DNA of 64,000 bases from Pegea sp. RAD2-039 (taxonomy: Eukaryota > Chordata > Thaliacea > Salpida > Salpidae): assembly GCA_034620365.1 (NCBI GenBank), contig JAQGEQ010000174.1, positions 62,001-126,000 of the forward strand, in the 5' to 3' direction. Under the pieces are notes generated by a model, which was given only the letters and a program-made list of their open reading frames with translations, was not told the DNA's origin and did not search any database. How positions within the stretch are numbered: position 1 is the stretch's first letter; each line of letters starts with the position of its first letter. Both the position numbers and the translations under genes were made by a program. Shown in pieces: positions 6,620 through 34,617 of this stretch.

Positions 6620-6643
6620 CTCAACAAGTTGAAACTGAATTTA

Positions 6644-7510
6644 ATGGACGACAAAGAATCTGATTGTAGGCGAAAGTTGTTATCAAACGAAAGTAACATC
6701 AGAGGTGAAACACCTAACAAGAAAAATGATAATGAATGTGTTAGTGAATTTGATAGCTGGCACGGAATTAACTTTGATGAAGTCAGTTTAAACAATGAAA
6801 TAGAAAATACAACAACTAAGAAAAGCGTTTCTACCCAAATTAGTGCTTCAACAGAAAATAGTGGAAAAGAAGAAAACAAACTTTTGTTTAAGAAAATTTC
6901 AAATGGCAAAGACAAATATGAATGTTTGATTTGTTGCAGACGCTTTAGTTGCAGATCTCAGTTTATTAATCACGAAAGAATTCATACTGGTGAGAAACCA
7001 TTTGAATGTATTGTTTGTGGAAAGAAGTTTAGTAAAAATTCACATCTCATAAGACATGAAAGAACTCATACTGGTGAGAAACCATTTGAATGTATTGTTT
7101 GTGGAAAGAAGTTTAGTCAAAATTCAGATCTCACAAAACATGAAAGAACTCATACTGGTGAGAAACCATTTGAATGCATTGTTTGTAGAAAAAAGTTTAG
7201 TCAAAATTCAGATCTCATAAATCATGAAAGAACTCATACTGGTGAGAAACCATATGAATGCATTGTTTGTGGAAGAAAGTTTAGTCAAAGTTCAAGTCTC
7301 ATAAGACATAAAAGAACTCATACTGGTGAGAAACCATATGAATGCATTGTTTGTGGAAGAAAGTTTAGTCAAAGTTCAAGTCTCATAAGACATGAAAGAA
7401 CACATACTGGTGAGAAACCATATGAATGCTTTGTTTGTGGAAAAAAGTTTAGTCGGAATGACCTTCTTTCACAACATAAAATAACTCATACTGGTGAAAA
7501 ACCAATTTAA
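6644..7510 (+). CDS. Poly-C2H2 zinc-finger protein, copy A (7 fingers, 288 aa)
   Basis: Probable nuclear DNA-binding protein. I place the start at ATG 6644 (MDDKESD), the first ATG of the open frame; the codons upstream contain no usable ATG. Residues 1-91 are polar and acidic with no KRAB, BTB, SCAN or ZAD signature that I can see. Residues 92-287 are seven 28-residue C2H2 units with TGEKP linkers. Finger 1 is atypical ([17 protein letters not shown]). Helix contact residues (-1,2,3,6) of fingers 2-7 read KSHR, QSDK, QSDN, QSSR, QSSR, RDLQ. Fingers 5 and 6 are almost identical, suggesting a recent unit duplication. The gene stops two residues after the last linker, inside what was an eighth finger. 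TATA-like AT runs lie about 90 bases upstream, and an AATAAA at 7912 is kept in all three copies. The family is certain; the target is unknown. Confidence 0.85.
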
Positions 7511-8062
7511 TGAATTGTTTGTAGAAAACGATTTCGTCATCATGCAAGTTTTTCATACCATCAAACAACTTGCATTATTCAGATTCAAAGTTTTCAGAAA
7601 AAAAATCATATAAAGATCCATTTTGCCTCATTCTAAATTTCAGTTTTTCTTTTTTTTTTCTAACATTTTCTTACAACATTTTAGAGTTTGGTTGGTTTTG
7701 TTTGAAGTATTTCTGATTTTTTTTGCAATTTCAGCGAAAAACGTCTATGGGTTTTGTTTTACTCTTTTGTGTTAATGATTACAAACTATGAAAAAATGTT
7801 ATATATCACAATATGAACCAATGTTACACTTTTTAAGAAAAAGGAATGCGGCAAGTATTTTATTTTCAAATTAAAATTGAAAAAAGCAAGTAATTTGATG
7901 TAAGTGGCAGCAATAAATAACATTTTAAAGCAAATTTACTAAACTTGTATTTTCTATCACAATTTTAAGAAACGTAACAAATTTTTACGTACTAAACGAG
8001 TCAAGAAAAGATCTTAGGTTTAATTAATTTATAATTTATTAATCATTTATATCTTATAGAAT
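7511..8062 (+). other. 3' flank of zinc-finger gene A with eighth-finger relic and polyA signal
   Basis: In frame after the stop, 7511-7580 still reads IVCRKRFRHHASFSYHQTT, a degenerate C2H2 unit whose first Cys codon has become TGA and whose last His is Thr. AATAAA at 7912-7917 has counterparts at 20828 and 35172, so it is the best candidate polyadenylation signal. Nothing else is seen. Confidence 0.55.
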
Positions 8063-8071
8063 TTTGGTAGA

Positions 8072-10343
8072 ATGTTTCAATTCATTTTTAGAAATGAAGT
8101 ATTGAAAAATAAATTAGAACTTCAACATAAATACAATCGTCATAAATTTGATACCGATAAACTTGATTCCATGTCTGATCTTTTTCTGAGAAACAAAATT
8201 GCTTTATCTGGATGCGTTTATTGGATATCTCAAGATGATAGTTTTGTTAAGGTATATAAGCTAAAAGATTTTAATGTTAGTAACTTTTCATATGAAATGG
8301 TTTTAATAAAACTACTTTTTTCATTTTGGAGTTGCATATTCCTTAGAAAAAATAAATCAGCGAAAGAAAATTTTGTTTGTTTGGAATTTTTGAAAGATTG
8401 TTTGATAATTGCTGATGGTTTGGATTCATCTAAAACTTTGCTGAACTGTAGGACAATTGTTTTTTTATGTTTCTTGTCACAAATTCTAAACATGTTTATA
8501 ACAACTTCAAAAACAAACTTTAAACAAGATAACAAAAGATTTGCTGAGTTCGTAAAACACTTTTCTTTCTCTTCATCCCCGACAAATACGTCACACTCTC
8601 AATATGGTTTAAATAAATTACAAACATATCTGTCATTATTAAATGGGTATGCTCACAAAACTATATATTTTCAACAGTGCCAACTTTGTTACTCTTCAGC
8701 TTATGAGAAAACAGCAACATTTATTAGAGAACTTGTAATGTATTGTGACTTGCTTTTATTTGTCCAATTATCAAATGCAAATCAAATATATGTTCTTAGA
8801 CAAACTTTTTGCTCAAAAGAGATTCACAAATTATGCGAAATTGAATTTACCAAGCATGTAATTGAGACTGACATCATTGATTATCATTGATGTATTATCA
8901 ATGAAATCATTGATTACTACGCTTTTGTCAGCTTTAGTTTGTTATGATTAGTTAATACAGTTGGTTTGTTCTTACAAATTTCCAGGCTTTAAATCTAATG
9001 AATTGAGAAGATTGCAAACAGTTTATATGTAAACAAAACTATCTATCAGAGCTTAGAGTTCAGTCATTATGAGTACAAACTAGGAGAATGTCTTGACGAA
9101 AAAGAAAAACAAGTTTTTCTTAGCAATGAAGGTATAATTTCTCTTATGAATGATGTTTTTATGTTTTCAGTATTAAACTCAACGATTTTAAAATGCTTGA
9201 GAAATCAAAACACATACCGGTCTATCTCTAAATTTTTGAGGATTATAATGTTGTTAGTTACTCTAGCTTTTGCTTTAAAGAAACAACTGAATATTTGTTT
9301 AGTGAAACTGCTGATTAATATTGCTAGGAAAAAGTCGCAAGGTTGCTTTTTAAACAGAAAAAATACGAAGGAATACTCAAGTGGTAAAAAATGTCAACTT
9401 TTAGATAAAATGTTTTATACAATTATTGATAAAACAAAGAAATATGACAATTTGTTTGTAAAAGACGTGATGCTTAAAACGTTTTTTGATTGTTTATTGC
9501 ATTAATTGCTTTTATCACCATATAAAACTACACTAGAGTTATTTGCTTTTGTAGAGTTTCCGTTTGAATACACAAATTTCCAAATTGAAAAACCAGAATC
9601 GTCACAAAACTATTTAGACTTTTTTTTATACTTTGATAAAGAAAGACATCGTTTTATTGGTCTTATCAGTTCTATCTTACAGGATGATTTCTTAAGATTG
9701 CCTGTAGATTTTATTACCGTAGAATCAAAAAAGATAAATGATTTGAAAAAGGATATAATCCTGAAATTTCACCACCAGTCTCAAATTCCGAAGGAGGAAA
9801 TTGAGCCGATTTTTAAATCAATATTTTTACTAAAACGAAAAGTTTGGTTGTTTACTTTGCTAGCTGCTAAGTTCATCGATTATACAAAAGAACATAAAAG
9901 ACATGTAATACTAAAGTTAACATTTTTTCTTACCGGAACGAATCTCAATTATTCTATTGGATGGAATAATTTAAGTATGATAAATTTTGAAGGATGGCTG
10001 ATAATCATAAGAAGTTTGATGATAAGCAATTCAAATTCTGCTAAATTAATAGTAGAAATTTTACAAAATTTCTTTCTTTTTTTTGAAGAGTTTGCCTAGC
10101 TTTCTGGATGATAGAATTACTCCATCTAATGAAGAATATTTTTTTAAACTAATTACCTGCATTCAAGTAACTGTTGAAGAAGTATGCAGAAGTTTTAATG
10201 AAAGCTCTGCTTTTAATTTACAGACCAATTTGTTGAATGAATACTTATCAGTTTTAGAAGATTTCTCTAAAATAAATAGAAAACAATTTACCTTTAAAAA
10301 TATTTTAAGCAAACTTAACGATCTACCTACAACACCATCTTGA
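8072..10343 (+). pseudogene. Unknown-family gene, longest copy, broken by stops and a frameshift
   Basis: Four open stretches on one strand: 8072-8890 (272 aa from an ATG, MFQFIFRNEV), 9002-9505, 9506-10099 and 10083-10343. The first three share one frame, separated by stops at 8888-9001 and TAA 9503. The last is shifted by one base after a run of eight T's near 10080. A short intron in 8890-9000 is possible (acceptor AAATTTCCAG ends at 8985), but exon frames do not join cleanly. The predicted protein is Leu/Ile/Phe/Lys-rich and mostly helical, possibly a HEAT/ARM-like repeat; I see no catalytic motif or signal peptide. Relics at 21620-22474 and 36318-37172 align with it. The homopolymer frameshift could be an assembly error, so a functional multi-exon gene is not excluded. 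Its 5' flank changes identity about 10 bases before the ATG, at a duplication edge. Confidence 0.6.
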
Positions 10344-11944
10344 ATTTTCTTTAATTGACTTGTGTCTCTTTTAATGTTTATGATCAATATTTAACCAAGT
10401 TGTCTATTTCTTGTAAAGTGTTTTAGTAGTACGTGCTTATAGCGTAACATAAGTATAACATGTATAAACGTAATCCTACTTTTCCAACGTTTGAATATTT
10501 TGTGTTTCAGTTTTAGTTTTCTGTAAGTGACCTGCCATTTGCAACAAAGTAAAATAAATCTACTGAAAAATAAAAGAACCTATTATTGCTAACTTGAAGT
10601 AGTTATAAAACTTTGTTGAAGTGATCAGGAAAAATTTATTATAAGTAGTATAAATAGTATTTAGAAACCAATTAATAGTTTATCAGTCTAATTGTAAGTT
10701 TTTTCGAAAAATTTGATTTTTAATTTTCAAGTCTTTTGAATAAGTAAAAATAAATCAACCAGTAGCTGGTGTGCTTGTGAAATGTTTGATCCAAAAATAA
10801 AACAAAATAATAGAAAAATAATTAAAAAAAAATAAAAAGAAACTTTTGATCGGAAAGGATATGAAAAAAGAATAAGCATCTACATAATAACAGAATAAGA
10901 ATTGTTCAATAGAATCATCATTGTTCAAGAATCATTATATCAACAATCATCAGACTCTAAAAAAGTTTTAACAACTTGTTTTGCTTTTTCAAAACTAAAA
11001 TGAATAATTTTATTAAGTAATAACATTACGAAATATGGAAGCTCAAAAATTTATAGATGTCAAAAACTTTTGTGTTGAATATATAACCTTTCATTGAAAA
11101 TTAAATGAAATTTGAAAACTGTATTCTAGGTTTAAGCATCAAATTTCTAGATTTCATTAGTAAAATACAGGTAGCTTCGGAATAAGAGATTTAAATTATT
11201 GTAAAGAGATCGAAAAAAATGAAAGTTAAAACTGTCGACGTCAACATTAATATTAGTTTAATTTTTTTTCGAAATTTATTCAACTCCAAAATGTAATCTT
11301 TCTTTGCGGATGATTCCGGAATTTTAAATTTATTAATTTTATCTTATTTATTATTTATTCTATTTTATTTAATTTTATGATAATTTTTGTGATTCTCGAT
11401 AAGTGATTCAATTTTCCGACAAGGATCAGGCTAATCCTGTCTTTAGTAGATTTTGTTTATGATAGTTTGCTTTGATAAATTTCATTAATTAGTTGACATA
11501 GAGTTTGTTAATTCACACACAAAAGAACACTTTTAATATTTTCAAAATTTGTGTTTTTTTTTTAAAGAGCTAAAAGATAATTCTATTTTATAACAAACTT
11601 CTAAATTTGTTTAAGATAAAATAATTTGGGTATTGGGCTTCATTCTAAAGATGAAGTAATTCTTAAGTTCTTTTAACAAGAACCGTAAGAAGTAACAACA
11701 AACACAACGTAATGACTTTTCACCAGTCTGAGTTCTTTCATGACTATTTAGGTGAGACTTACAAGAAAAACTTTGTAAACAATCAATAATTTCCTTGAGT
11801 CAGAGAAGATCTCTATTTCACAAAGAAATATACACCAGATATTAAATGGTGCTCCATCAAATGACTGGTCATATGATTGTGAATGATATGCTCTTGAGTT
11901 CTGCAGAAAACTGAAGTCAGTGAAACTGGTCTGTAGTTAAGTGC
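10344..11944. other. No gene seen; one repeat fragment
   Basis: AT-rich DNA. About 11090-11330 resembles repeat Y (23600-24240), sharing AAATTTATTCAACTCCAAAATGTA. The rest (10344-11080, 11340-11944) shows no convincing frame, RNA gene or repeat, apart from a few slightly less AT-rich bases near 11740-11960. Confidence 0.5.
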
Positions 11945-11959
11945 AGTTTTTCTGGGACC

Positions 11960-13380
11960 CTTTTTGAATCCTAAAATATTTAAAAGAAATTAAAAAGAAA
12001 ATTACTAACAGCAAACAGAATTTAAAAACCTTCGAGCAATTTAGAGAAATCGCTCAATCCTGATGTTCTTATGAAAAACAATCATAGTTTGTTCGATAGA
12101 TTTTGGGCAAAAAAAAACTGATGTTTGTAAAAAAAATGTTGATTTAAATGCATAAAAAAGATTAAAAGAAAAATTAAGTTATACTTTTTTACGAGGAATT
12201 TGTAAACATCAAACAATCTCAAAAAAACGCAAAACCTTATTTTTACCATAGAAAAAACTTACAAAAGTACATCATTTATTATAATTTTAATATTTTTTTG
12301 GTATTACTTTCAGTTTACAGAAGATACTAAATAATATATTTAAATATATTTGTTTTGTTTTTAAGAATCTAGAAAAGGTTAGTAATTCATAAAATTTCCA
12401 TTCATAAAAGTAAATTTTACTTTTTGTAAATTGATAGTATCGAAGGCAACAATTTACAACTTCTAAAATTTTAGAAACAAATTTATATTATTTGATATTT
12501 TATCTCAAGATAGAGAAAAAACAGCAATGCCGATCTGATATTTAATGATTTCGAATAGATGATAATAAAAAGAAAAATAATAGTTTTGTTGAAAGAAAAG
12601 TTTTCAATTAGTAAAAAATCTGTCATATTACCAATAACATGTTTACAAACATATTTTGTGATGAATAATAACTCAAGTTATTAATCTTAGTTATTATTTA
12701 AAGTTTCGTTGTAAAGTACTTTAGCTTAAAATTTTAAAACTTTGCAATCCTTTACGAAAGATTGAGCTTTATTTTACTTTTCATTTCTTATAAACGTTGT
12801 TGCAATCTGAAGTGTATGGGATCAAGTTCAAATGAAACTAATTTTATAATTTTATTGATAAGCATTTTGTTGACAAATATTTTTCAAATAGAAAATTTGA
12901 TTTCAAAGTTGATAAGAAAGTTTTTTACAAGTTTACTATTATACACAAACCAAATTAGTTTAGTTTTTCTGATGAAGTTTTATTTAATTCAGATTTAAAG
13001 TTGTTTTTACTTTAATGATTAAGATTAAAAATGATCAATCTTACTGACGATAGAAAAATAAATCAAAGCCATATGACTTTTTGTTCTTAATAATGAGAGT
13101 ACTATAAGACTCAAAAATCATTTTCCTTTGATCTTCAAAATAATTTAAAAATTATACAAATCATATAATGTTATCTATCCATAGACTATTACTATCAGAT
13201 TTAAAGTTATTTCTACTTCAATGATTCAGATTAAAAATTATCCATCGTTTTGACAAATTTAAATTAAGTCAAAAGCCATGTGACCTTTTGTTTTTAAAAT
13301 AGTAAATTGAGAGTACTATAAGACTTAGAATTTTTTTCGTTTGAACTTCAAAATAATTTTCAAAAAGGTTTAACAACATT
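11960..13380 (+). repeat. Repeat family X copy 2 (internally deleted), left part of block B
   Basis: 11960-12250 matches 49045-49350, and 12280 onward matches 49805 onward. About 450 bp present at 49350-49805, including the TGTTTGTGGTATCGGT module and the CTCF-like box, are therefore missing here. A 78-codon open stretch at 12762-12998 is just the GGGATCAAGTTC sub-repeat read through and is not a gene. Confidence 0.7.
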
Positions 13381-13530
13381 TTAATCTATATTCTATGAGT
13401 TAAATCCTAATTTTTTGTCAAAATAAATATTTCTTGAAAATCCTTTTTTTGTTAAAGGATAACAAATTTTATGAACCAGGTTACTTTAAGATTAATAATT
13501 CCTGCTATATGTTGGGTAAAATTTATTAGT

Positions 13531-14995
13531 AAGTCATATATTTCACATCTTTTCATTATTAATTATAATCATTTGATAAATTTATTTATGGATTTGTAGA
13601 AAAGTTTATACAATTTGCAACAAAACACATTGTGGTCTTTGTTAAATAAAAATGAACTGCTTTCTTGATTTTCATTTCTCTAACAAAACAAATTGAAAAA
13701 ACAAATCTAATAAAAATAAAGGATTTACAAAACAAAATTTAATCCAAAAATTAATTTGAATATTTTATTAGTTTTAAGCGTTTATTTAATATCAGGAAAT
13801 TAAAATGAATTTTACAATTTTTGTATTGCATAATCACGACGAATTATAAAATAAAAGTGTTATATTAATAACTAATATTATAATAAATATAATAGTATAT
13901 ATATAATAATTGAATCAAAGTTGACCTTTAGATTTCGTAAAGGAACACAATATTTAAAATTAAGATACGTAGAATGCTATGACAAGCAATTTTCAAAATG
14001 CTTATGGTCAGTGAAAGTGCTTGAAGTCCACATGTACAGGGCGAAACGCCTTTCATAATTTACAAATAATAACTTCCAAATTGAAGGTATTAAACTTTTA
14101 AATGTATTAATGAATTAATTTTTCAAGTAAGTCGGTAAATATTTAAAATTTTATTTCTTACGAGCATTCTATTACAAGCTGTGTGTTTCAGATTAATTAA
14201 TTAAAAATATAATTATTATAATTATTATTAGCAAAAACCTTAAACTAATTATTTTCGTTATTTTCAAAAAAAAAAAATTTTAATAATTTTCATATTTACA
14301 AGTTTATATATACAATTAAATTTGTATTACTAATAAAAAAGGAAAATTTTTCAAAACCAAAATAAAAAAATTGATTATTTTTAAAGTGTAATCCCGAAAT
14401 TAAACAATTACAAAACAAAGGATACAACATTTTTGAAAATTATTCATTTTGTCTGTTTTCCATATATAATAAAACTTTTTTGAATACGTGAATATAGAAA
14501 AGCATCTTTCAAATTATTGATTATAACTTGAAGAAATGTTTACAAAGTTATAAATATCTGTGGATATACAAAAGCTGTAAAAACTTGTATATTGAGATTT
14601 GATCAAATTATCATGCGTGCTTAAATCAATTAATATTGTTATTGGAACTTTTATTATAAAATGCTTTACTTGGTTTGATTTCAAATTGGATTATTAGTAT
14701 TATAATAATTTTCATTTTTTGTTTTAAAAAGAAACTTAACCTTTTTTATTGGATTTAAAAAACAAACATTGCACTATTTTATTTGAAATATAAGAAAGTG
14801 TTTCATTCTAAAAAAAAAGTATAAAATTTTTAAACATTTACATTTAACTGTAATAATGATATTCGAGATGATATTTACTCACATAAAGGTTAACTATTAC
14901 CGCATATATTTTTTGATATTCAAAAGTTGAAGTTATTTTATAATTTAAATAGTGTATAAGGCTTACAGGAAATTAAATTTGAATAAATTGTTTAA
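13531..14995. mobile_element. Block-B-specific insertion of ~1.46 kb
   Basis: Block A runs straight from ...AAAATTTATTAG to AAAAGTTCAAATTTATGACC near 2020-2045. In block B these two phrases are about 1.46 kb apart. The extra DNA is AT-rich, has no open frame of note, and I see no clear terminal inverted repeats or target-site duplication. It holds a hammerhead-like core near 14017-14050. It may be a degraded element inserted in B, or ancestral DNA deleted from A. Confidence 0.5.
14005..14060 (+). ncRNA. Hammerhead-ribozyme-like relic
   Basis: The sequence reads TTGAAGTCC, loop ACATGTACA, then GGGCGAAACGCC. This matches the stem II and GAAA core of type I hammerheads (canonically CUGAUGAGUCC...GGACGAAACGCC) with the CUGAUGA box damaged to CTTGAAG. 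A GTC cleavage-like triplet lies just upstream (14007-14009). Stem II (GTCC/GGGC) can form. It is probably an inactive remnant of a retroelement-borne ribozyme (Penelope-like elements and retrozymes carry them). Chance similarity is possible. Confidence 0.35.
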
Positions 14996-16874
14996 AAAGT
15001 TCAAATTTATGACCTTTCTTACTGTTTGCGTCACCAAACGGATGAAATAATTTGGCTACAAAAACAAATAAATAAACTTTCAACTTTCATGGGATAGATT
15101 AGTTTAATAATTTGTATATTTGTAGAATAATGTTTAATTTTTTTTAACATTAATTTTCTCGAATTAAATTTTACCATAATTGATTAACTTATGTATTTGG
15201 TGAGGTGAAACATCTGTGTTGAAATCATAAACAAAAATATCTTATATACATTGTGTTTAATTATTAACTATGTAAATATTAAATAATAGTATTTAAATTT
15301 TGAAAAAACAAGAAATTTTTATTTATAAATATAAATAAGCTTTCCGGTCTGTTAGTACTCACAATTTAAAAATAAAACATTCAAATGGCTTGACTTAATT
15401 TCTAAAAGTCTTCATTTATCAGCGCCACCAAACTTTTTTAAATTATCAAATATGTTATTAATATACAACAATTTTAATTCAAACTTGAGAAATATGAATT
15501 TATTTATAAACAAATATTTTCTTTAAAAGTACAAAAAGTAATTCGTTTAAACTTGACCCCTACAAACTCTAGATTAAAACAAAATTATAAATACTGAGAA
15601 ATTCTGAAAAGTATCAAGGTTATTATAGTTTCAACAGATGATATTTTTGGAGTTGAAATACTTTTCAACAAAACTTCAATTAAAAGTTGAATAAATTTAG
15701 TTTGTATTTTGTACAAAAAATAAAGTAAAAATAATTAATGTCAAATTTCTTTTACTTGTTTTGAAACATGTTACTACAAAAAGAAAACTTTTCTTTCAGT
15801 AAAAATTGTATTTGTACTTCAACTTTAAACGAAATTAAGGGAATTGTTTATTTCTATTTTGTTTTTAATATTGCTAAAATAAGTTAATTGAATATCATTT
15901 CGACAAATCTACTTTTAATGCTGTAAATACTTTAATGCAGTAGAAAATTATTTGAAAACATTTTAATTTTTAAAGTTTTAATTTCTTAGTCTTCCAAGTA
16001 ATATTACAATATGATTTTATATGTTAAAAATATTTTTATTCAAATAAGTTTACAATTATAAATACAAGCAAACAAATAGATTTCTATTTATACAATTATA
16101 AGTTATTCAATGAATTATTGAATTAGTTATTTTATTAATTAAATTTACAGTTTAAAAATTATCAGAAAAAAAGTAACCAACAGGAAAATTTAATCTATTA
16201 TTGTAGAGAATCTATTTTATTGCAAATTTGGAATTTAATTTTTCTAATGAAATTTCAAGTAGTAAATAAATTAAAAAGCTTAAGTTTAGATTCTTTACAA
16301 ATAATAATAGAATTAATTTAGGTCAAAAGTTTATCTTATAATTCTAAACAAGTCACTGATATGTGAGCAAATTTAGTGTTGTGAGTTTAAATAAAAATTA
16401 TATAAATATTAAAAAAATAATGTTTTGTAAGTTCAAACATTTTGACCTATTTATCTAACAGATGTATGGTTACAACATTTGAAATTTTATAAAATATGAA
16501 AATAATATTATTATAAGAGCATTTTGTTGCTGGAAAATTAATATTAAAATGCAATTAAATTCTAGAATTTTTTGTAGCTTACAGTCTACTAAAATAAATT
16601 CCAATAAAAGTGAAACAAACTGCAAACAATTTGTTGAATTCAGTTTATCTCTGACTTTTCATAAATTTACATTGTAGAAAATGTTGGAAAACCTTTTTCT
16701 TCATTCATACTAATGTTATACTAAATTTTTTTAAGTATTGTATAAAAACTATTTTATTAAAATTACTCTCATAGTTATTATATATAAATGCATATATTTT
16801 GTAAAATTACTTTATTTTATTTTACAATATTGCTGTGAATCATAGCTTACGTTCTTTGGATACTTGAGGCATAA

Positions 16875-17075
16875 TGTTTGTTTGATTATGAAGCACATAA
16901 CGTTTTCAAAGATAGAATTTGTTTTAATGATTTTAAGAAACTTGATCAAGCTTCGAATTTTAGTAATGGAGAACTGTCTTTAAGTATAAATAAAGAAATC
17001 AAAATATTTTTATCACAGAGACTATCAGTTGAAACAAAAGAATTCAGTTTAATATCACTTAAATATAACCATTAG
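16875..17075 (+). pseudogene. Exon-like relic 1, block B copy (open)
   Basis: 66 codons without an ATG start: CLFDYEAHNVFKDRICFNDF..., ending ...EFSLISLKYNH then TAG. A stop (TAA 16872) lies immediately upstream, so it could only be translated as an exon. The same stretch is open in block C and broken in block A. The family is not recognised. Confidence 0.4.
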
Positions 17076-17872
17076 AAGAACATGTAATATTGAAACAATA
17101 AAGAAAATTTTTACGTTCAATGACTTGAAAAGTTGTTTAACTATTTTTCCTAACAAATTGTTTATGTTTACTTAAGGACTCTTTTGGTCTTATAGACTTG
17201 CTTAGAAGGCTTTATAATTTTTTTCCAAACTATTCACATAGTTAAGAAACTAATCTGAAAACAAATTATTCATTTTTAAAGGTTTTTTAATTCAGTGAAA
17301 AACATTATCCGCTAATTTTGATCAGTTTAAATTGTTTATCAGAACTGAAATAACTAAGCAGTGTAAATATCAAAGATACTGATGATGTAATATATATTAA
17401 AGAACTTTTATTTCTTTAAACATCTTAGATACATAAATCATCTTAAAACTTTCATTCTGAATTTAGTGAATCACTGTGAAATACTATTGCTATTTTATAC
17501 CTGTAGTTATTTCTTAGCAAGTACAAGTTTAGATAATGAATATTACAATTTAATTAACTATTAATGTGTAGTGGTTTACTATTTTAGAAAACAAGTTTCA
17601 AAAGAAATAGTAGTTTTTTACATGAATCTTTTCGGTCAATATTCAAATAAATAAGTTTGCAATTATATTATTGATACTTGGTATTCATAAACTTCTTTAC
17701 AAGATTTTTATTTTTGATTCATTTTTATTTTTAAATAAAAAGAATGTATAATTGCTTTTTACATTTTAAACAAAACTTTGCAAAGAAAGTTATTACATGA
17801 AAATTGTTTTTAAAAATTTTATTATGAAATTTTTTGAAATTGGAAAAAATTCATATTTTAAAATTACTTTAA

Positions 17873-17885
17873 GCGCCAGTTAGCG
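17873..17885 (-). promoter_or_regulatory. CTCF-like box, block B
   Basis: GCGCCAGTTAGCG on the + strand, identical to the block A and C boxes. Confidence 0.35.
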
Positions 17886-19102
17886 AAATTAAAAAACAAC
17901 CTTACAATTTAATGGTTTTTTATGAAATTTATTTGCATAAATAAATTTAATATTATAAAGAAATAGAATTACTTATAAATAAATACATCTGTTAAAAAAG
18001 TATTGCAGAAATTATATTTACAACGCATCTGTTATAATTCTAAAATGAAATAAAAAGAAGATATTACTAACAACCTTATTTTCACACAAAAAAGCTTTAC
18101 CAATTATTAAATATAAACAATTTTATATTGATGTAATTTTTACTAAAACAAAATTATTGATATTATTTCTGCTTTTAAAAAAATTTGAAATTTTAAGGTC
18201 AAACTAATTATAAGCATCTTTAATACTATAAAAATCAAATACAATCACTAAATCAAGATTTTACATTTGTAATCAAAAACCATTTATTATTTAAGACATG
18301 CATATATCCGTTTCAAACAATTTAAACATATTAAACAGTATTCAAAATAACTTGTTCTCGCTACACACTAGTCAAGTGGGTTTATAAATGTCAAACTTTA
18401 TACTGAAGAAATAAGATATAGTCTATAAAAATTGAAGACTTATATTTTAAAGTATACGATAGAAAATGTTAGAAATTGTTGTTTGTGTAACTTCATAGCA
18501 AACACAAGAAACTTCAGTTTTTTAACAACAATTGCAATCAAACGATTATGTTAAGCAGTTTACTATTGACATAGTCATACAGATAAACAATATTAACATA
18601 AAAACTAATTTGAAAGTTTGGTTTGGCAATAATTTGGAATCAATAGTTTGTATCACTTTATACAAATTTATAAAACATATTTCTGGTAACTAATTAAGTT
18701 TCTCTAGATATATTCCACTTAAAATTGAGAATTAGATTTACTTTCCTTTATCAAATTTGTCTATTTGTTTTCCAGATTATTTTTTGCTGACAGTGGTACC
18801 TTACAGCCTTATGTATATTTGCTGCAGTCAATCTAAGATAAATAATATTTTTCGGAAGAAAAAAATATTTTGATTTTTAAAGCCAAGTTAAAAAAAAAAT
18901 TTATTTTCTTAAAATTATGATTTTTATTCCTGAAAAATGGTTTCTGGTAGAACGATCTAAAAATGAATTTTAATTTTCTTTCCAAAAAAAGTTAAACACC
19001 AAACTTGCATCGATCAATTTAAAAACACTGCTTAGTGATTACAAAAGTGTATTTGCTTATTTTTTTATTTATATATCTGCTTATATATAACATATTTTTC
19101 AG

Positions 19103-19364
19103 GTAAACATTTATTTCAAATCATCAAATTTGAAGAAAAGAGCAGAAAACTCAGCATTAAGAGATGTTAAAAACGTTTAATAAAAAATCTAAAGATAACG
19201 TTGAATACTCAAGACTTTTTATGAAATATTGTCAATTAGAAAGTTTTTGTCAGGCTATTTTGAATTGTTTACTTTCATTAATTTTCTGTTGCAGTATTGA
19301 ATATGGCAACAAACCACTTCAAAATGTATTTAAGATATTCTATTGTAAAATATATATTTTTTAA
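19103..19364 (+). pseudogene. Exon-like relic 2, block B copy
   Basis: It follows the acceptor ATATTTTTCAG. The first part is frame-shifted by two missing A's relative to block A. From ATG 19164 a 66-codon frame runs KKSKDNVEYSRLFMKYCQLE..., then CQAILNC and, after a TTTTCTGTTGCAG acceptor-like string, IEYGNKPLQNVFKIF. It is the best-preserved reading of this relic. It may be two exons of an old gene read across a short intron. The family is not recognised. Confidence 0.4.
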
Positions 19365-19540
19365 GAAACTGTGAATAACTGTTTTTGATTCAATTTTAAT
19401 TCTTTTTTTAAATATACTATAACTTTATTTTGCATAGAAATTAACAAAAAGTTAATTCAGATTACAATCGAATTGATTTGTATATAATATATTATTTTTT
19501 TTATTTTTTATTACACTAAAAACTAAAGCGTTTTGTTTAC

Positions 19541-19546
19541 ATGTAG
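19541..19546 (+). promoter_or_regulatory. Minimal start-stop element (ATG TAG) ahead of zinc-finger gene B
   Basis: Same position and sequence as 6614-6619, 30 bases before the usable ATG. Confidence 0.35.
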
Positions 19547-19570
19547 CTCAACAAGTTGAAACTGAATTTA

Positions 19571-20269
19571 ATGGACGACAAAGAATCTGATTGCATGCGA
19601 AAGTTGTTACCAAACGAAAGTAACATCAGAGGTGAAACACCTAACAAGAAAAATGATAATGAATGTGTTAGTGAATTTGATAGCTGGCACGGAATTAACT
19701 TTGATGAAGTCAGTTCAAACAATGAAATAGAAAATACAACAACTAAGAAAAGCGTTTCTACCCAAATTAGTGCTTCAGCAGAAAATAGTGGAAAAGAAGA
19801 AAATAAACTTTTGTTTAAGAAAAATTCAAATAGCAAAGACAAATATGAATGTTTGATTTGTTGCAGACGCTTTAGTTGCAGATCTCAGTTTATTACTCAC
19901 GAAAGAATTCATACAGGTGAGAAACCATTTGAATGTATTGTTTGTGGAACAAATTTTAGTCAAAATTCAAACCTCTTAAGACACGAAAGAACGCATACTG
20001 GTGAGAAACCATTTGATTGTATTGTTTGTGGAAAGAAGTTTAGTCAAAATTCAGATCTCACAAGACATGAAAGAACTCATACTGGTGAGAAACCATTTGA
20101 ATGTAGTGTTTGTGGAAAAAAGTTTAGTCGGAATTCAAACCTCTTATCACACGAAAGAACACACACTGGTGAGCAACCATTTGAATGTACTGTATGTGGA
20201 AAAAAGTTTAGTCGAAATGACCTTCTTTCACAACATAAAAGAACTCCTACTGGTGAAAAACCAATTTAA
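19571..20269 (+). CDS. Poly-C2H2 zinc-finger protein, copy B (5 fingers, 232 aa)
   Basis: Start at ATG 19571 ([13 protein letters not shown]). The N-terminal 91 residues differ from copy A at only a handful of sites. Five C2H2 units follow (residues 92-231), two fewer than A and C. Contact residues of fingers 2-5 are QSNR, QSDR, RSNS, RDLQ. Finger 2 has CGTNF where the others have CGKKF, and one linker is TGEQP. In the last finger the second zinc-binding His is Pro (HKRTP), so finger 5 should bind zinc weakly if at all. The reading frame is intact. It is probably an expressed DNA-binding protein, but the combination of fewer fingers and a damaged terminal finger suggests relaxed constraint. 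PolyA signal candidate at 20828. Confidence 0.78.
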
Positions 20270-21619
20270 TGAATTGCGTGTGGAAATCAATTTGGCCATC
20301 ATGCAATTCTTTCATACCATCAAACAACTTACATTATTTAGATTCAAAGTAATCAGAAAAAAGATCATATAAAGATCAATTTTGTCTCATCCTAGTTTTT
20401 AGTATTTCTTGTTTTATTTTTATTATTTTTCTAACAACATTTTAGAGTTTCGTTAGTTTTAAATATTTCTGATTTTTTCTTGTAATTTCAGCAAAAAACG
20501 TTTATGTTTATTTAAACGGTTATTTATGGTTATAGTAACTCTTTTTTGTTATTGACTATATACTTGAAAGCTTTTATCTCTTATTTTTGTAACTTTTAAT
20601 TTGCAAACAATTAATTGGTGTAAATCAATTTTCTATCTTTTTAATAGATAAACAAAATTTAGTTAAATAATGAACATACAGTGCAGAATTTAGATAAATG
20701 TGAAAGTGTTAAATATTACAATGAAGCAATGTTATTCTTTTTAAGAAAAGGAATTCTGCAAGTTTTGCTTATAATAAATTAAAATTGAAAAAAGCAAATA
20801 AGCGAGTATTTTGATGTAAGTGAGAGCAATAAACATTATTTTAAAACAAAATTACTAAACTTGTATTTTCTATCACAATTTTAAGAAATGTAACAAATTT
20901 TTACGTAGTGAACAAGTCGAGAAAAGATCTTAGGTTTAATTAATTGATAATTTATTAATCATTTATATCTCATAAAATTTTGAGTCTTATTTGAGTCTTA
21001 TTATGAGAAAATGAAAAGTTTTTTTTTAAATTGAAAAATTATTCGATATTTTTTAACAAATCGTTTAATAAAATTTCTTTTCTGATTTTATTATAAGCAC
21101 CATAAACATAATGAATTGTGGTTTAAATTATAACTTAAATTAGATTTCACTATAGATTACTAGTTTACTGCTAACTAGCGGAGGTTTAATTTCTTGTATA
21201 AAATTTTTGTTCTACACTTTGCTGTAAACGAAATAAATAATTTATATGTTTGGTTATTGTGTTGTTTTTTTTTAATATATAATATTGTTTTTAAGGTAAA
21301 AATTATTTCAGGAAAAAAATCTATGTTTATTTTTTTCCAAACAATTAAGATTAAATAATATTAAAAAAATAACAACAATTTGAAATTTTTCTTCAGTCAA
21401 CTATATTAGAGAATATTTCAAAATCTTGAAACGAAAAGAATATATAATTTGTAAGAGGTTAATATCCACTAATATTATCACTATCTTCCTTTCTTACTTT
21501 AACTGCAATTTTATTTTAAAGTTGATTAATTCAGTTATAAAACAAATTTGTTTTCATAATTTAAATAATCTAGGCTAATAAGCTAGGCTAACTAAGATCG
21601 ATATAGTTTTCGGATGTTT
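20270..21619. other. 3' flank of zinc-finger gene B; no further gene
   Basis: 20270-20340 is the eighth-finger relic (IACGNQFGHHAILSYHQTT after two stops). AATAAA is at 20828-20833. Near 20984-21005 the phrase GAGTCTTATTT is repeated directly, where block C has about 350 extra bases (35331-35680); this may be a deletion scar in B. 21010-21600 is shared with C and is non-coding. Confidence 0.55.
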
Positions 21620-22474
21620 TTAAGTGGAATAGAAAACGTTTTGACCTTTGAAACATTTATAGAGATTTGAGGTTAATACTGGGAACGAGAAAACACTCTT
21701 CAAACGACAAATTTTCTTTACTTTGAAAAAACTATTTTCTTTAACACTTTCTTCCAATTTATAAACATAATCACTAAGCTGTAAGTTCATATAGATACCT
21801 TTATTTAAATATAAACCAGTTATAATAATTATATTAAACTCGATAGTTTTGATAATTGCATACTTGCAAGAACAAACCAACTCAATTAACCAATCAAAAC
21901 AAACCTAAGTTGACGTTAGTGTGGTAATTAATGACTAGTCAGTCTGAAATACATGCTCGCTAAACTCTGTTTCACATAATTTGTGCATCTCTTTTAAGCA
22001 AACAATTTGTCTAAAAACATGCAATTTATTTACATTTGAAGACTGAACAAATAATAGGAAATCACAACATATTACAAGTTCTCTAAGAAAGCTGATTGCT
22101 GTTACATAAGCTAGGGTGTGATAAAATTGGTATTGAGAAAATCAAACAATGTTTCAAAAGTTCCAAACAAACAAAATGTTCTCTCATTGATTTATTTTTA
22201 TTTAAAGAATGTGCAACTCAAAAGTAAAAAAAATCTTGACTAAAATCATTTCATAAGAAAAGTTAATAACATTGAAATCTGTATGCCTATTGACCTTAAC
22301 AAAATCATCATCCAAAGAAATCCAATAAATACATCCAGGTATAGCAATTCTGTTTCTCAGAAAGGAATCAGATTTGCAATCAAATTTATCGCTTTCTAAA
22401 TCATCAAGCATTTACTGTTTTTCAAGCTGTATTTTATTTTTAAATATATTATTTGCAAAAATGTATTGAAACAT
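21620..22474 (-). pseudogene. Unknown-family gene relic, block B (inverted, truncated)
   Basis: Read on the - strand from ATG 22474 (MFQYIFANN), with an early stop, then an open part (22411-22202) reading SDSFLRNRIAIPGCIYWIS, which aligns with SDLFLRNKIALSGCVYWIS of the 8072 copy. A region of about 85 residues is deleted. Then come FLRELVICCDFLLFVQ and, at 21880-21620, YLNKGIYMNLQLSDYVYKLE, aligning with YVNKTIYQSLEFSHYEYKLG. It ends before the 3' half of the gene. Multiple stops make it a pseudogene. It is convergent with zinc-finger gene B. Confidence 0.65.
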
Positions 22475-23600
22475 TATACCTTGCAAAATGTAGAACTTGT
22501 TTTCTTTTATCTTGCACTGTTTTACAAACTAAGAAAACTTATAAGCTTTTAAACTAGTTATTATTAATAATTGGCAGTCTGTAAAATTTTTAATAGTATC
22601 TCTTATTTTTGCAAATGTTTATACAGATAACAATCTGTAAAACTATTTGTGTTTAAACTAATTTGTCTTAAAATATAAATGATTTAATTTAGTTAGATCT
22701 CAAAGAAATAATATTAGAGACATTACATTTATGCAGCTTGCAACAGCATACATATATTTAACTTCAGACACAAATAGAACTAAATGTTAACAAGAAAATA
22801 AGAGAGTTTTATTGAGAAAATTACAGATGTAATTTACATAGTTTCTAATTAAATATTATTTATAATTTCAAAACTTCACAAGTATTTTTCACTCGTTTAC
22901 AAACAGTTTGTTTATTGATATATGTAAAGTTGATTTTCATCTAAGAAAACTCAGAGTAAATTATTTCTATAGTCTTTTAAGTACCTGACTATTTTGCTTT
23001 TTTCGCCAAATAGAAGTTAGTATAAACAAATTATTTCCAACTGTCAATAAATAAACCAAAAATATTAATCAAACATCATCTGAATTTTATCTAAACAAAT
23101 GAAATTTCTTGTTGTCTGGTAATCAAAGGACTCTCTATCTTTCACATTTTAAAAGAAGTTCACCAGAATAAAATTACTGGTTCGGAATTATTTATTTACT
23201 TTAAACCAATCTCCCAACTGTTTTAAGATCAGACGTTTTCAAGACACTGTTTAAAATTATCAGTGAACACATCGGTCCCAAATATTCATCTGATGAATTA
23301 CATAGAACACGATACTTTAATTAAAGTTTTTATATTATAATATAAATTATTACAAAATGCAGAATATTTTCTTAGTTATATATTAAAATTCAACTTTAAT
23401 GTAATAGTTTCAACACTAAACTAAAACAAAATTATAAAATAATTGTTTGAAAGAGATTGTTAAAATGCAACTGCAAGTTTCTAAAATCATTGTATAGAGT
23501 TCTACGAGAAATAAATTAAAAAAAATATTTTTCTTAAATAACAATAAAAAGAAAATCTAAAAATCTTTAATGTAAAACTATGAATAAGTATAAATAATAA
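22475..23600. other. No gene seen
   Basis: Up to about 22850 it is shared with block C (37173-37555). After that it is unique AT-rich DNA with no supported feature. Confidence 0.5.
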
Positions 23601-27739: not shown

Positions 27740-27740
27740 G

Positions 27741-28962: not shown

Positions 28963-29044
28963 TGGCAGCGGTGAGATTCGAACCCACGCCATCGAAATGA
29001 CTGGTGCCTTAAACCAGCAATTTAGACCGCTCGACCACGTTACT
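28963..29044 (-). pseudogene. Decayed tRNA-Leu (anticodon AAG)
   Basis: 82-nt type II tRNA shape on the - strand. The anticodon stem-loop CTGGT-TTAAGGC-ACCAG is intact, the variable arm CAT-TTCG-ATG can pair, the T arm is GTGGG-TTCGAAT-CTCAC, and the discriminator is A. The acceptor has A1:C72 and A5:C68 mismatches, and the D stem (GTC/ATT) does not pair. These defects look like CpG-type and other point mutations in a former nuclear tRNA-Leu gene or a tRNA-derived repeat. Confidence 0.75.
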
Positions 29045-29172: not shown

Positions 29173-29256
29173 ATGGGTTGTTCCAACTCCTCACAAACAA
29201 ATCGACCAGGAGCAAAGCTGAGCATGGTTTTGATGAAAAACAATTGCATTTGGTAA
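29173..29256 (+). CDS. Possible short ORF or first exon starting MGCSNSS (27 aa)
   Basis: ATG in a favourable context (CAAACAATGGG) opens MGCSNSSQTNRPGAKLSMVL plus seven residues before TAA. Gly2 followed by Cys3 and Ser6 fits an N-myristoylation and palmitoylation signal. The local base composition (about 29100-29350) is clearly less AT-rich than its surroundings. TTTG|GTAATT at the 3' end could be a splice donor, so this may be a first exon. Other frames here stay open longer but lack a convincing start. The family is not recognised. Confidence 0.3.
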   Translation: MGCSNSSQTNRPGAKLSMVLMKNNCIW

Positions 29257-30028: not shown

Positions 30029-30048
30029 TTTGAATCCTGGCTACAGCA
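30029..30048 (+). pseudogene. tRNA 3'-end fragment
   Basis: TTTGAATCCTGGCTACAGCA matches the T loop, T stem and acceptor 3' strand of the tRNA-His relic at 30172 with two differences, but on the opposite strand. The two form an inverted pair about 120 bases apart. Confidence 0.5.
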
Positions 30049-30171
30049 TAAATCATTTTAGTTTTAATGAAAGATAGTTTGTTAAATATAAGTTTTGATG
30101 GATAGAAACAGCCTGTAGTAGAAGATACGAATTAAAAGTAAGGAGAAAAGATAAACTGAAATTAAAAAATA

Positions 30172-30243
30172 TGCTGTAACCAGGATTCGAACCTGGGTTG
30201 TCACGGCCACAACGTTAAGTACTAACCATTATACGATTACAGT
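30172..30243 (-). pseudogene. Slightly degraded tRNA-His (anticodon GTG)
   Basis: 72-nt cloverleaf on the - strand. The acceptor ACTGTAA/TTACAGC pairs except A1:C72, the D arm GTAT...AGTAC is normal, and the anticodon loop is TTGTGGC. The anticodon stem TAACG/CGTGA has one mismatch, and the T arm CCAGG-TTCGAAT-CCTGG is perfect. It is close to eukaryotic nuclear tRNA-His. The lost G1 and the stem mismatch make function doubtful. Confidence 0.75.
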
Positions 30244-30248
30244 GCATG

Positions 30249-30275
30249 TAGCAGAGGATGGTTTCGATCCATCGA
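30249..30275 (-). pseudogene. 3' fragment of initiator tRNA-Met
   Basis: On the - strand it reads GATGG-ATCGAAA-CCATC-CTCTGCT-A, the T arm and acceptor 3' strand of eukaryotic initiator tRNA-Met. The loop ATCGAAA is diagnostic of eukaryotic initiators. The 5' two thirds of the gene are absent. It lies only five bases from the tRNA-His relic, and block C begins a few bases beyond it. Confidence 0.65.
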
Positions 30276-30614
30276 ATTTTAAATAAATATCAATTTTAAA
30301 ATGCAATATTATTCTGAAAAAATTTATAATTTACAGTCTAATAAAATAAATTACAACAAAAGTGAGACAGACTGCAAATAATTTGTTGAAGTCATTTTTT
30401 TTCTGACACTTAATAATTTATCATGGTAGAAATTGTTATAATATTGTTCTATTTAATCTGACTTTTAATCTGACTGTTATTCTAACCTTATTTAGGTATT
30501 GTATGAAAACAGTTGATTAAAATTAGTTTTTTATTTAGTTTAAGATATTATATATTTATATGTTAGATAATTGTTATATATTTATATACTATTAGTGAAT
30601 TATAGTTTGCATTA

Positions 30615-30800
30615 TTTGGTTATTTTTGAGAATTATGTTTGTTTGATTACGTCACACATAACGTTTTCGAACACAATATTTTTTGTAATGATTTTTTGAA
30701 ACTTAATCAAGCTTCATAGTTTAGTAATTGAGAATTGTCTTTAACTATAAATAAAGAAATCAAAAGATTTTTATCTTCGAAGCTATAAGTTGAAACAAAA
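30615..30800 (+). pseudogene. Exon-like relic 1, diverged extra copy in block C
   Basis: Recognisable from TTTGATTACG...AACGTTTTCGAACAC to ...AGCTATAAGTTGAAAC. It has frameshifts and stops and is older than the adjoining copy at 31031. Confidence 0.45.
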
Positions 30801-31030
30801 GTTCACCGACTCTTAATAAATTTACATGGTAGAAAATGTTGGAAAACCTTTTTCTTTATTCTTACCAATGTTATTCTAAACTTATTTAAGTATTGTACAA
30901 AAACAAGTTTATTGAAATTAATCTCACAGTTATTATATATAAATGCAAATATTTCGAAAAAATTACTGTATTTTATTTTACAATATTGCTGTGAATCATA
31001 GCTTACGTTCTTTGGTTACTTGAGGCATAA

Positions 31031-31231
31031 TGTTTGTTTGATTATGAAACACATAACGTTTTCAAACATAGAAATTGTTTTAATGATTTTAAGAAACTTG
31101 ATCCAGCTTCGAATTTTAGTAATGGAGAACTGTCTTTAAGTATAAATAAAGAAATCAAAATATTTTTATCACGGAGACTATCAGTTGAAACAAAAGAATT
31201 CAGTTTAAAATCACTTAAATATAATCATTAG
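31031..31231 (+). pseudogene. Exon-like relic 1, block C copy (open)
   Basis: 66 open codons without an ATG, CLFDYETHNVFKHRNCFNDF..., ending ...EFSLKSLKYNH. It differs from block B at several residues with no stop or frameshift. Confidence 0.4.
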
Positions 31232-32026
31232 AAGAACATGTAATATTGAAACAATAAAGACAATTTTTACGTTCAATAACTTGAAAACTTGTTTAATTAT
31301 TTTTTCTAACAAATTGTTTATGTTTACTTAAGGACTCTTTTGGTCTTATAGACTTGCTTAAGAGGATGTATATTTTTTTCTAAACTATTTACATAGTAAA
31401 GAAACTAATCTGAAAACAAATAATTCATTTTTAAAGGTTTTTTATTTCAGTAAAAAACATTATCCGCTAATTTTGATCGGTTTAAATTGTTTATCAGAAC
31501 TGAAATAACTACGCAGTGCAAATATCAAAGATACTGATGATGTAATAAATATTAAAGAACTTTTATTTCTTTAAACATCTTAGATACAAATCTCATCGTA
31601 ATACTTTCATTCTGAATTAAGTGAATCACTGTGAAATACTATTGCTATTTTATACATGTAGTTATTTCTTAGCAAGTACAAGTTTAAAAAACGAATATTA
31701 CAATTTAATTAACTATTAATGTGTAGTGGTTTACTATTTTAGAAAACAAATTTCAAAAGAAATACTATTTTTTTACATGAATCTTTTCGTTCAATATTCA
31801 AATAAATGAGTTTGCAATTATATTATTGACACTTGGTATTCATAAACTTCTTTATAAGATTTTTATTTTTGATTGCGTTTTATTTTTAAATAAAAAATGT
31901 ATAATTGCTTTTTAGATTTTAAACAAAACATTGCAAAGAAAGTTATTACATGAAAATTATTCTTAGAAATTTTATAATGAAATTTTTCGAAATTGCAGAA
32001 AATTTCTTATTTTAAAAATACTTTAA

Positions 32027-32039
32027 GCGCCAGTTAGCG
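32027..32039 (-). promoter_or_regulatory. CTCF-like box, block C
   Basis: GCGCCAGTTAGCG, identical to blocks A and B. Confidence 0.35.
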
Positions 32040-33271
32040 AAACTAAAAAACAACCTTACACTTTATTGGTTTTTTATGAAATTTATTCGCATAAATAAAT
32101 TTTATATTATAGAGAAATAGAATTACTCATAAATAAATATATCTCTTAAAAAAGTATTGCAGAAATTGTATTTACAACTCATCTTGTTATTATTCTAAAA
32201 TGAAATAAATAAAAGATATTACTAACAACCTCAATTTCACACAAAAATGCTTTACCAATTATTAAATATAAAATATTTTATATTGACATTAATTTTACTA
32301 AAATTAAATTATTGATATTATTTCTGTTTTTAAAAAGGTTTGAAATTTTAAGGTCAAACTATTTATAAGCATCTTTAATACCATAAAAATCAAGTACAAT
32401 CACTAAATCAAAATTTTACATTTGTAATCAAAAACCATTTTTTATTAAAGACATGCATATATCCGTTTCAAACAATTTAAACATATTAAACAGTATTCAA
32501 AATAACTTGTTCTCGCTACACACTACTTTAGTGGGCTTATAAATGTCAAACTTTATACTGAAGAAATAAGATAAAGTCTATAAAAATTGAGAACTTATAT
32601 TTTAAAGTATAGAATAGAAAATGTTAGAAAATGTTGTTTGTGTATCTTCATGGTAAACACAAGAAACTTCAGTTTTGTAACAAGAATTGCAATCAAACGA
32701 TTATGTTAAGCAGTTTACTATTGACATTGTCATACAGATAAACAATATTAACATAAAAACTAATTTGAAAATTTGGTTTGGAAATAATTTGGAATCAATA
32801 GTTTGTATCACTTTATGCAAATTTATAAAATATATTTCTGGTAACTAATTAAGTTTCTCTAGATATATTCAACTTAAAATTGTGAATTAGATTTATTTTC
32901 GTTTATCAAATTTGTCTCTTTGTTTTCCAGATTATTTTTTGCTGACGGTGGTACCTTACAGCTTTATGTATATTTGGTGCAGTCAATCTAAGATAAATAA
33001 TATTTTTCGGAAGAAAAAAAATATTTTGATTTTTAAAGCCAAGTTAAAAAAAAAACTTATTTTCCCAAAATTATGATTTATTTTCCTGAAAAATGGTTTC
33101 TGGTAAAATTTCTGGTAGAACGATCTAAAAATGAATTTAAATTTTCGTTCCCAAAAAAAGTTAAACACCAAACTTCAACTGATCAATTTAAAAACACTGC
33201 TTAGTAATTATAAAAGTGTATTTGCTTATTTTTTTATTTATATATCTGCTTATATATAATATATTTTTCAG

Positions 33272-33520
33272 GTAAACATTTATTTCAAATCATCAAAATT
33301 CGAAGAAAAGAGCAGAAAACTCAGCGTTAAGAGATGTTAAAAAACGTTAAATAGAAAAATCTAAAGATAACGTTGAATGCTAAAGACTTTTTGTGAAATA
33401 TTGTCAATTAGAAAGCTTTTGTCAGGCTAATTTGAATTGTTTACTTTCATTAAATTTTTGTTGCAGTATTGAATATGGCAATAAACCACTTTAAAATTTA
33501 CTTAAGATATTTTCTTGTAA
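33272..33520 (+). pseudogene. Exon-like relic 2, block C copy
   Basis: It follows the acceptor ATATTTTTCAG at 33271. Small indels put the A-type and B-type frames out of register, so no long frame survives. TTTTGTTGCAG near 33465 matches the second acceptor-like string of the other copies. Confidence 0.4.
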
Positions 33521-33717
33521 AATATATATTTATTCTTTAAGAAAATGTGAATAATTGTTTTTGATTCAATTTTAATTCTTTTTTTAAATAAATTATAATT
33601 TTATTTTGCATAGAAATCAACAAAAAGTTAATTCAGATTACAGTCGAATTGATTTGTATATAATATATTATTTTTTTTAACTTTTTGTTAAACTAAAAAC
33701 TAAAACGTTTTGTTTAC

Positions 33718-34617
33718 ATGCAGCTCAACAAATTGAAACTGAATTTAATGGACGACAAAGAATCTGATTGCATGCGAAAGTTGTTACCAAACGAAAGTAA
33801 CATCAGAGGTGAAACACCTAACAAGAAAAATGATAATGAATGTGTTAGTGAATTTGATAGCTGGCACGAAATTAACTTTGATGAAGTCAGTTCAAACAAT
33901 GAAATAGAAAATACAACAACTAAGAAAAGCGTTTCTACCAAAATTAGTGCTTCAGCAGAAAATAGTGGAAAAGAAGAAAATAAATTTTTGTTTAAGAAAA
34001 TTCCAAATGGCAAGGACAAATATGAATGTTTGATTTGTTGCAGACGCTTTAGTTGCAGATCTCAGTTTATCAATCACGAAAGAATTCATACAGGTGAGAA
34101 ACCATATGAATGCATTGTTTGTGGAAAAAAGTTTAGACAAAATTCAGATCTCACAAAACATGAAAGAACTCATACTGGTGAGAAACCATTTGAATGTATT
34201 GTTTGTGGAAAAAAGTTTAGTCGGAATTCAAACCTCTTATCACACGAAAGAACTCATACTGGTGAGAAACCATATGAATGTATTGTTTGTGGAAAAAAGT
34301 TTAGTCAAAATTCAAACCTCTTATCACATGAAAGAACACATACTGGTGAGAAACCATATGAATGCATTGTTTGTGGAAAAAAGTTTAGACAAAATTCAGA
34401 TCTCACAAAACACGAAAGAACTCATACTGGAGAGAAACCATATGAATGTATTGTTTGTGGAAAAAAGTTTAGTCGGAATTCAAACCTCTTATCACACAAA
34501 AGAACTCATACTGGTGAGAAACCATTTGAATGTATTGTTTGTGGAAAAAAGTTTAGTCGAAATGACCTTCTTTCACAACATAAAAGAACTCATACTGGTG
34601 AAAAACCAACTAAATGA
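33718..34617 (+). CDS. Poly-C2H2 zinc-finger protein, copy C (7 fingers, 299 aa)
   Basis: Here the upstream ATG is followed by CAG instead of TAG, so the frame opens ten codons earlier ([10 protein letters not shown]) than in A and B; the conserved MDDKE start is at 33748 and either may be used. After the shared acidic N-terminal region come seven C2H2 units with TGEKP linkers and all zinc ligands present. Contact residues of fingers 2-7 are QSDK, RSNS, QSNS, QSDK, RSNS, RDLQ. Fingers 2-3 and 5-6 are a repeated pair, suggesting a two-finger duplication. It ends PTK then TGA, where A and B have TAA TGA. It is the most intact member. Nuclear DNA-binding protein; target unknown. PolyA candidate at 35172. 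Confidence 0.87.

Follow-up and report, generated by a model that had tools for sequence, protein, structure and literature searches.

The window analysed here, a stretch of 64,000 nucleotides (positions 62001-126000 of contig C261, in a genome of 105.7 Mb and 387 contigs) with a GC content of 20-27% per 4 kb, holds three closely similar genes for arrays of C2H2 zinc fingers, referred to as A, B, and C. The question raised by this locus is what has kept their N-terminal regions alike and made their fingers different. A previous reading based on the letters of this DNA (hereafter, the sequence-only reading) described a frozen N-terminus followed by arrays that exchange finger units and so diversify their targets; its observations as a whole are partly confirmed, and its interpretation is partly supported, by the analysis reported below.

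Three Paralogs in Duplicated Blocks

The existence of three C2H2 paralogs was confirmed by their open reading frames and by a domain search (Table 1). Their fingers stand in tandem with TGEKP linkers, seven in A, seven in C, and five registers in B; the previous count of seven, five, and seven holds for the registers but not for the last finger of B, where a proline replaces the second zinc-binding histidine, so that B has four complete fingers. The first finger is of the same kind in the three genes (contact quad CSQN or CSQT), as is the last one (RDLQ). The internal quads are KSHR QSDK QSDN QSSR QSSR in A, QSNR QSDR RSNS in B, and QSDK RSNS QSNS QSDK RSNS in C; the contact residues and the finger order do differ, as had been noticed. 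The internal duplications read in A (fingers 5-6) and in C (where the finger pair 2-3 recurs as 5-6) also hold at the DNA level, and they must be recent, since the finger pairs A5/A6, C2/C5, and C3/C6 are each identical at 82 of 84 nt. The N-termini had been said to differ at few sites, and the copies are indeed separated by 6 to 8 nonsynonymous changes. An antisense frame of 115 aa is open over the N-terminal region in all three copies and probably reflects no more than composition and common descent.

The self-alignment of the window revealed that each gene is embedded in a block of about 4-5 kb, 92-94% identical to the others, noncoding DNA included (93.8% over 5350 nt between 2022-7358 and 14985-20285; 92.4% between 3716-7749 and 30802-34850; 92.5% between 16653-20286 and 30808-34463). 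A 981-bp probe from upstream of A (4420-5400) has 40 genomic matches, 18 of which, the probe itself counted, extend over 870 nt or more with an identity of at least 93%; these 18 are located on the contigs of the 21-gene subfamily described below, with one block on C286 (468081) harboring no listed gene. On the basis of the blocks and of the upstream matches, the copying unit is a several-kb block and not the coding sequence alone, and A, B, and C are recent segmental duplicates. A further dispersed repeat family, with copies about 79-96% identical, lies outside the zinc-finger blocks.

Table 1. Location of the features discussed in the text (window positions, unless a locus handle is given).
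Feature	Position	Strand	Remarks
Dispersed repeat family	1-1660, 49593-51262, 12252-13532, 41898-43066		Window self-alignment
Duplicated block around A	2022..7749	+	Window self-alignment
Duplicated block around B	14985..20985	+	Window self-alignment
Duplicated block around C	30802..35329	+	Window self-alignment
Gene A	6644..7510	+	288 aa, poly-C2H2; leader of 91 aa, then 7 fingers
Gene B	19571..20269	+	232 aa, poly-C2H2; leader, then 5 finger registers
Gene C	33748..34617	+	289 aa, poly-C2H2; leader, then 7 fingers
Antisense 115-aa frame	6610-6957, 19537-19884, 33714-34061	minus	
Decayed older last finger after A	7505..7588	+	62/84 nt vs last finger of the L043 gene; best control 35/84
Broken companion copy, 5'-truncated	8066..10634	+	Joined to the end of A's block
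Companion pseudogene remnant	21638..22586	-	Antisense, downstream of B
Companion pseudogene remnant	36336..37410	-	Antisense, downstream of C
Intact companion relatives	L043:5316-7649; L044:1896-4232		
tRNA-Leu(AAG)	28963-29044	minus	ARAGORN; below the Rfam cut-off
tRNA-His(GTG)	30172-30243	minus	ARAGORN; reaches the Rfam cut-off

A Large Family and the History of Its Arrays

A genome search with the first 119 residues of B returned, among the matches listed, 21 copies at 86-100% (the subfamily of the window), nine fetched loci at 49-53% on C91, C95, and C266, four of which carry stops, and more than 100 weaker matches. A fourth copy is located just beyond the window edge (C261:54519), and a partial further copy of the subfamily at C275:72428. 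With a leader (i.e., the N-terminal region) from a sister cluster as the query, at least 105 N-termini of this cluster at 85% or more were found, all on C254, C255, C60, and C89; 98 of the 105 listed have no stop within the matched stretch. Many recent paralogs, at least 21 in one group and at least 105 in the other, are therefore clustered on a few contigs, and the family totals well over a hundred genes in one genome. These copy numbers are approximate, since uncollapsed haplotypes may inflate them and some copies may be alleles (e.g., L019 and L020, whose N-terminal coding DNA is identical and whose upstream DNA differs by 0.4%). In the 24 sister genes that were fetched, the arrays comprise between 4 and 18 fingers within the stretches retrieved and show 74 contact quads, a count that includes some first fingers.

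The arrays of the window subfamily bear the traces of an older and longer form. The remains of a decayed finger overlap the stop codon and extend past it in 18 of its 21 copies, the three exceptions being those with broken arrays (L015, L023, and L027); 18 of the 21 arrays extend to a common stop region, and 15 have the same last finger (RDLQ, RND-type). The decayed fingers share 58-64 of 84 nt with the last finger of the L043 gene, which is intact, versus 33-37 in the 3' flank controls, and similar relics follow B and C. The subfamily was, therefore, cut short of an older last finger. Some fingers recur without any nucleotide difference in two or more genes (30 of 184 distinct fingers in the sister cluster, 13 of 54 in the window subfamily), as expected from gene duplication and exchange; together with the 82/84-nt duplications, this is in agreement with the proposal that finger units have been duplicated and exchanged. 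Whole blocks are also repeated in sister arrays, as in L048, QSSI QSSS LSSS QSTS RHYC being followed by QSSI QSSS LSSI QSTS RHYC.

Other tandem C2H2 genes, in repeated copies with frames of about 210-446 aa, are present at C8:19000-48500 and on C92, C3, and C132. The genome also contains what we take to be homeodomains resembling Cdx, Xlox, and posterior Hox; two posterior-Hox-like homeoboxes are located at L071 and L073 (C235:97051 and 119215, 22 kb apart, on opposite strands). These homeodomains and one GT-AG intron point to a bilaterian. Searches of the genome for COX1 and, with no positive control, for Chitin_bind_4 were empty.

The Leader: Frozen or Young?

The leaders of A, B, and C have a pairwise pN of 0.027-0.035 and pS of 0.021-0.063, and the upstream noncoding divergence is 0.047-0.059; over the 210 pairs of the 21 copies, the means are 0.040, 0.078, and 0.083, respectively, with a pN/pS of 0.51 as a ratio of sums. 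Parsimony on the leader trees counted 80 nonsynonymous and 25 synonymous changes in the 21 copies of the window subfamily, and 130 and 39 in the sister cluster, for which 21 of the 24 fetched genes were used (all but L055, L066, and L067). Under three mutation-type weightings and two synonymous references, the omega-like ratio of the leader is 0.73-0.93 in the window subfamily (widest interval 0.38-2.10) and 0.81-1.02 in the sister cluster (interval 0.55-1.62) when set against its own synonymous sites, and 0.56-0.71 and 0.78-0.98, respectively, when these are pooled with those of finger 1. A transition weight of 2 on the parsimony trees gives 0.93 and 1.02. On spanning-tree edges, the values for leader and finger 1 are 0.89 and 0.91 in the window subfamily (pooled synonymous sites) and 1.11 and 0.47 in the sister cluster. 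Nonsynonymous leader changes amount to 0.380 per site, versus 0.508 changes per site in the upstream noncoding DNA.

Taken together, these values place the leader between weak constraint and near-neutrality. A mild constraint is possible, its size varying with the method; the leaders are alike mainly because the copies are young. The data do not bear out an N-terminus frozen by selection: the flanks of the copies are nearly as similar as the genes themselves, and the omega-like ratios reach only down to 0.56 in the window subfamily and 0.78 in the sister cluster. We also considered finger 1 as the constrained part. In the sister cluster, it is clearly constrained (own-site ratio 0.21-0.28; 0.43 nonsynonymous changes per codon versus 1.35 in the leader). 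This proposal fails in the window subfamily, where finger 1 has 0.79 nonsynonymous changes per codon versus 0.88 in the leader, and a ratio of 0.51-0.65 against pooled sites; its low own-site ratio (0.29-0.38, p=0.0022) results from a high local synonymous count.

The only Pfam match of the leader was below threshold (PF18262, E 0.042, 14.5 bits versus a cut-off of 26.8), and NCBIfam returned none, in agreement with the previous statement that the N-terminus has no known effector domain. Neither KRAB nor ZAD (zf-AD) was found in A, B, and C or in leaders searched alone (those of B, C, and one third-group gene in the case of KRAB), no SET domain matched these proteins, and a genome-wide ZAD search, run without a positive control, was empty. 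An RKRKL-like basic motif occurs in the leader of sister groups, and across eight sequences of three subfamilies, little is kept besides R-K-L near the start. With at most weak constraint on it, the leader provides no argument for an effector.

Selection at the DNA-Contact Positions

The contact residues were compared with the rest of the finger on minimum spanning trees of distinct 84-nt fingers, with edges of up to 4 changes; the opportunities for substitution were weighted according to the spectrum of noncoding changes in the 21 upstream regions. The set excluded first fingers as well as last fingers of the RDLQ type, and hence the lost histidine of B; in the divergent sister genes L066 and L067, the finger register began at the second finger.

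In the sister cluster (24 genes, 137 edges), the contact residues clearly change faster than the rest of the finger: omega is 1.49 (1.05-2.03) at positions -1, 3, and 6 versus 0.37 (0.28-0.48) elsewhere, with p=4.6e-17 for their share of the changes, and 1.28 (0.91-1.75, an interval that includes 1) when position 2 is added. Zinc ligands changed 3 times versus 24.3 expected at the rate of the other sites. In the subfamily of the window (47 edges), the excess is suggestive and underpowered, with 1.56 (0.74-2.77, including 1) versus 0.76 (0.51-1.14) and p=0.0099 at -1, 3, and 6, and 1.27 (0.61-2.26, p=0.058) with position 2, which is invariant; its zinc ligands show 0 changes versus 13.4 expected. 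With a transition weight of 2, the four contact positions give 1.67 versus 0.45 in the sister cluster and 1.56 versus 0.98 (p=0.069) in the window subfamily. All these p-values are approximate, because edges are not independent under gene conversion. By entropy, only one of the 10626 four-position sets, the contact set itself, reaches its value in the sister cluster, with first fingers still in the run, versus 346 of 10626 in the window subfamily; the register-based tests without first fingers are preferred. In the recent near-copies C/L012 and B/L010, the differences fall on the linkers and the scaffold rather than on contacts. The claim that contacts diversify is therefore clear for the sister cluster and suggestive for the window subfamily, and the outcome that the sequence-only reading had named as speaking against it, contacts that do not outpace the other finger sites, was not obtained.

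It is possible, if somewhat unlikely, that the window genes are mostly by-products of neutral segmental duplication within repeat-rich DNA, of a minisatellite-like turnover of 84-bp units, and of relaxed constraint, with no adaptive retargeting. Several data would fit this explanation: the leader ratio of 0.56-0.93, a finger 1 hardly slower per codon than the leader, the value of 0.76 (up to 1.14) at non-contact sites, three broken arrays out of 21 and a zinc ligand missing in B, and flanks nearly as alike as the genes. Two observations speak against it: the zinc ligands are unchanged (0 changes versus 13 expected, RDLQ-type last fingers being outside the count), and 18 of 21 arrays reach the common stop region.

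A Companion Gene

The most unusual feature here is a co-amplified companion family of about 780 aa. Its intact relatives encode about 780-800 aa in a single open frame; shorter relatives of about 430-466 aa are grouped on C272, C87, C26, and C358, among others. Residues 1-272 of the broken copy have 141 listed matches in the genome. Among four intact genes, pN/pS is 0.58-0.67 in five of the six pairs and 0.87 in the sixth, a very close pair (2.6% apart at synonymous sites). The best Pfam hit has E=3, no match was found in NCBIfam, PHROGs, or PDB sequences, and none of 84 pattern matches in viral contigs was confirmed as a relative; an AlphaFold model of the window fragment, built with no alignment, was uninformative (mean pLDDT 38). 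At L045:4002-4529 (minus strand), a fragment that seems to resemble the C-terminal part of an SMC6-type ATPase adjoins a pseudogene of the companion family and a C2H2 gene of another kind.

In a third zinc-finger group of 22 genes, 17 have a companion match in head-to-head orientation at a distance of up to 7 kb, a proportion that is a description and not a test, as both the group and the 7-kb limit were chosen after viewing the lists; for one of the 17, C275:89589, the match is a fragment that doubles as the remnant following the subfamily copy at C275:94105. All that is left of the companion after B and C is antisense remnants, and by the listed coordinates, such remnants also lie downstream of several other subfamily copies. 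This arrangement and the pN/pS values would suit a zinc-finger gene and a companion that co-amplify as a divergent two-gene system, each partner being lost in different subfamilies, which we regard as improbable; that the two form a co-amplified module, either mobile or selfish or a regulator-effector pair, of which the window genes are one-sided survivors, is hardly probable. Indeed, two whole units, the two that were read, align over more than 9 kb with no clear edge and no terminal repeats; of the contigs of the sister cluster, C254 has three of the listed companion matches and C255, C60, and C89 none; and the 9.9 kb retrieved with the C272 companions (L046) contain no member of this zinc-finger family. 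If the two-gene reading were true, an example would be a selfish element, or a pair of genes in conflict, in which the zinc-finger partner repeatedly shifts its target. The companion family is a question separate from the zinc-finger expansion.

Discussion

We consider it probable that these genes belong to a lineage-specific poly-C2H2 expansion that diversifies its targets, like the KRAB- and FiNZ-type families, an expansion ordinary in kind, well supported in the sister cluster and more weakly so for A, B, and C. The protein plan consists of a weakly constrained leader, a family-typical first finger, and a variable internal array. The 84-bp units of the array are duplicated and move between genes, probably by recombination, and substitutions at positions -1, 3, and 6 of the helix are favored (clearly so in the sister cluster). 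Unit exchange and favored contact changes would then diversify the binding specificity. The proteins are likely to act in the nucleus as sequence-specific DNA-binding factors, and their most likely role, by analogy with the work on KRAB-ZNF (PMC2604467) and FiNZ-ZNF (PMC10547256) proteins, would be the repression of repeated or mobile DNA, with transposons as putative targets.

The pattern suggests that the arms race of poly-zinc-finger genes extends to a small, AT-rich animal genome with its own leader. In a genome of 106 Mb, the whole target set could be mapped, so that the tracking of transposons would be directly testable. The impression of a "frozen domain" can stem mainly from the age of the duplications. 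That the family serves chromosome biology, i.e., PRDM9-like marking of recombination sites or satellites rather than transposon control, is very improbable: array turnover and contact-site selection are also typical of PRDM9, and the solved arrays closest in sequence to gene C include ZNF568, the designed Aart, PRDM9, and CTCF, but this likeness is confined to the fingers and is uninformative, and the high copy number and the absence of SET or KRAB matches in these proteins argue against it.

Among known systems, the ZAD-ZNF genes of arthropods are another large poly-zinc-finger expansion of invertebrates; the genes analyzed here differ from them in that no ZAD match was found. The KRAB-ZNF expansions of mammals, as described by Emerson and Thomas (2009, PMC2604467), share with the present family the clustered paralogs, the gain and loss of fingers, and selection at -1, 3, and 6; the Pegea genes have no KRAB match and a weakly constrained leader, and they belong to a different animal lineage. 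According to Wells et al. (2023, PMC10547256), the FiNZ-ZNF genes of cyprinid fish carry a conserved 28-aa domain in an exon of its own; here, instead, a single reading frame encodes leader and fingers, and there is little sign of selective conservation in the leader. The likeness to the FiNZ-ZNF genes, judged from their published description, lies in the large clustered family, in an N-terminus of its own matching no known domain, and in the selection at the contact sites.
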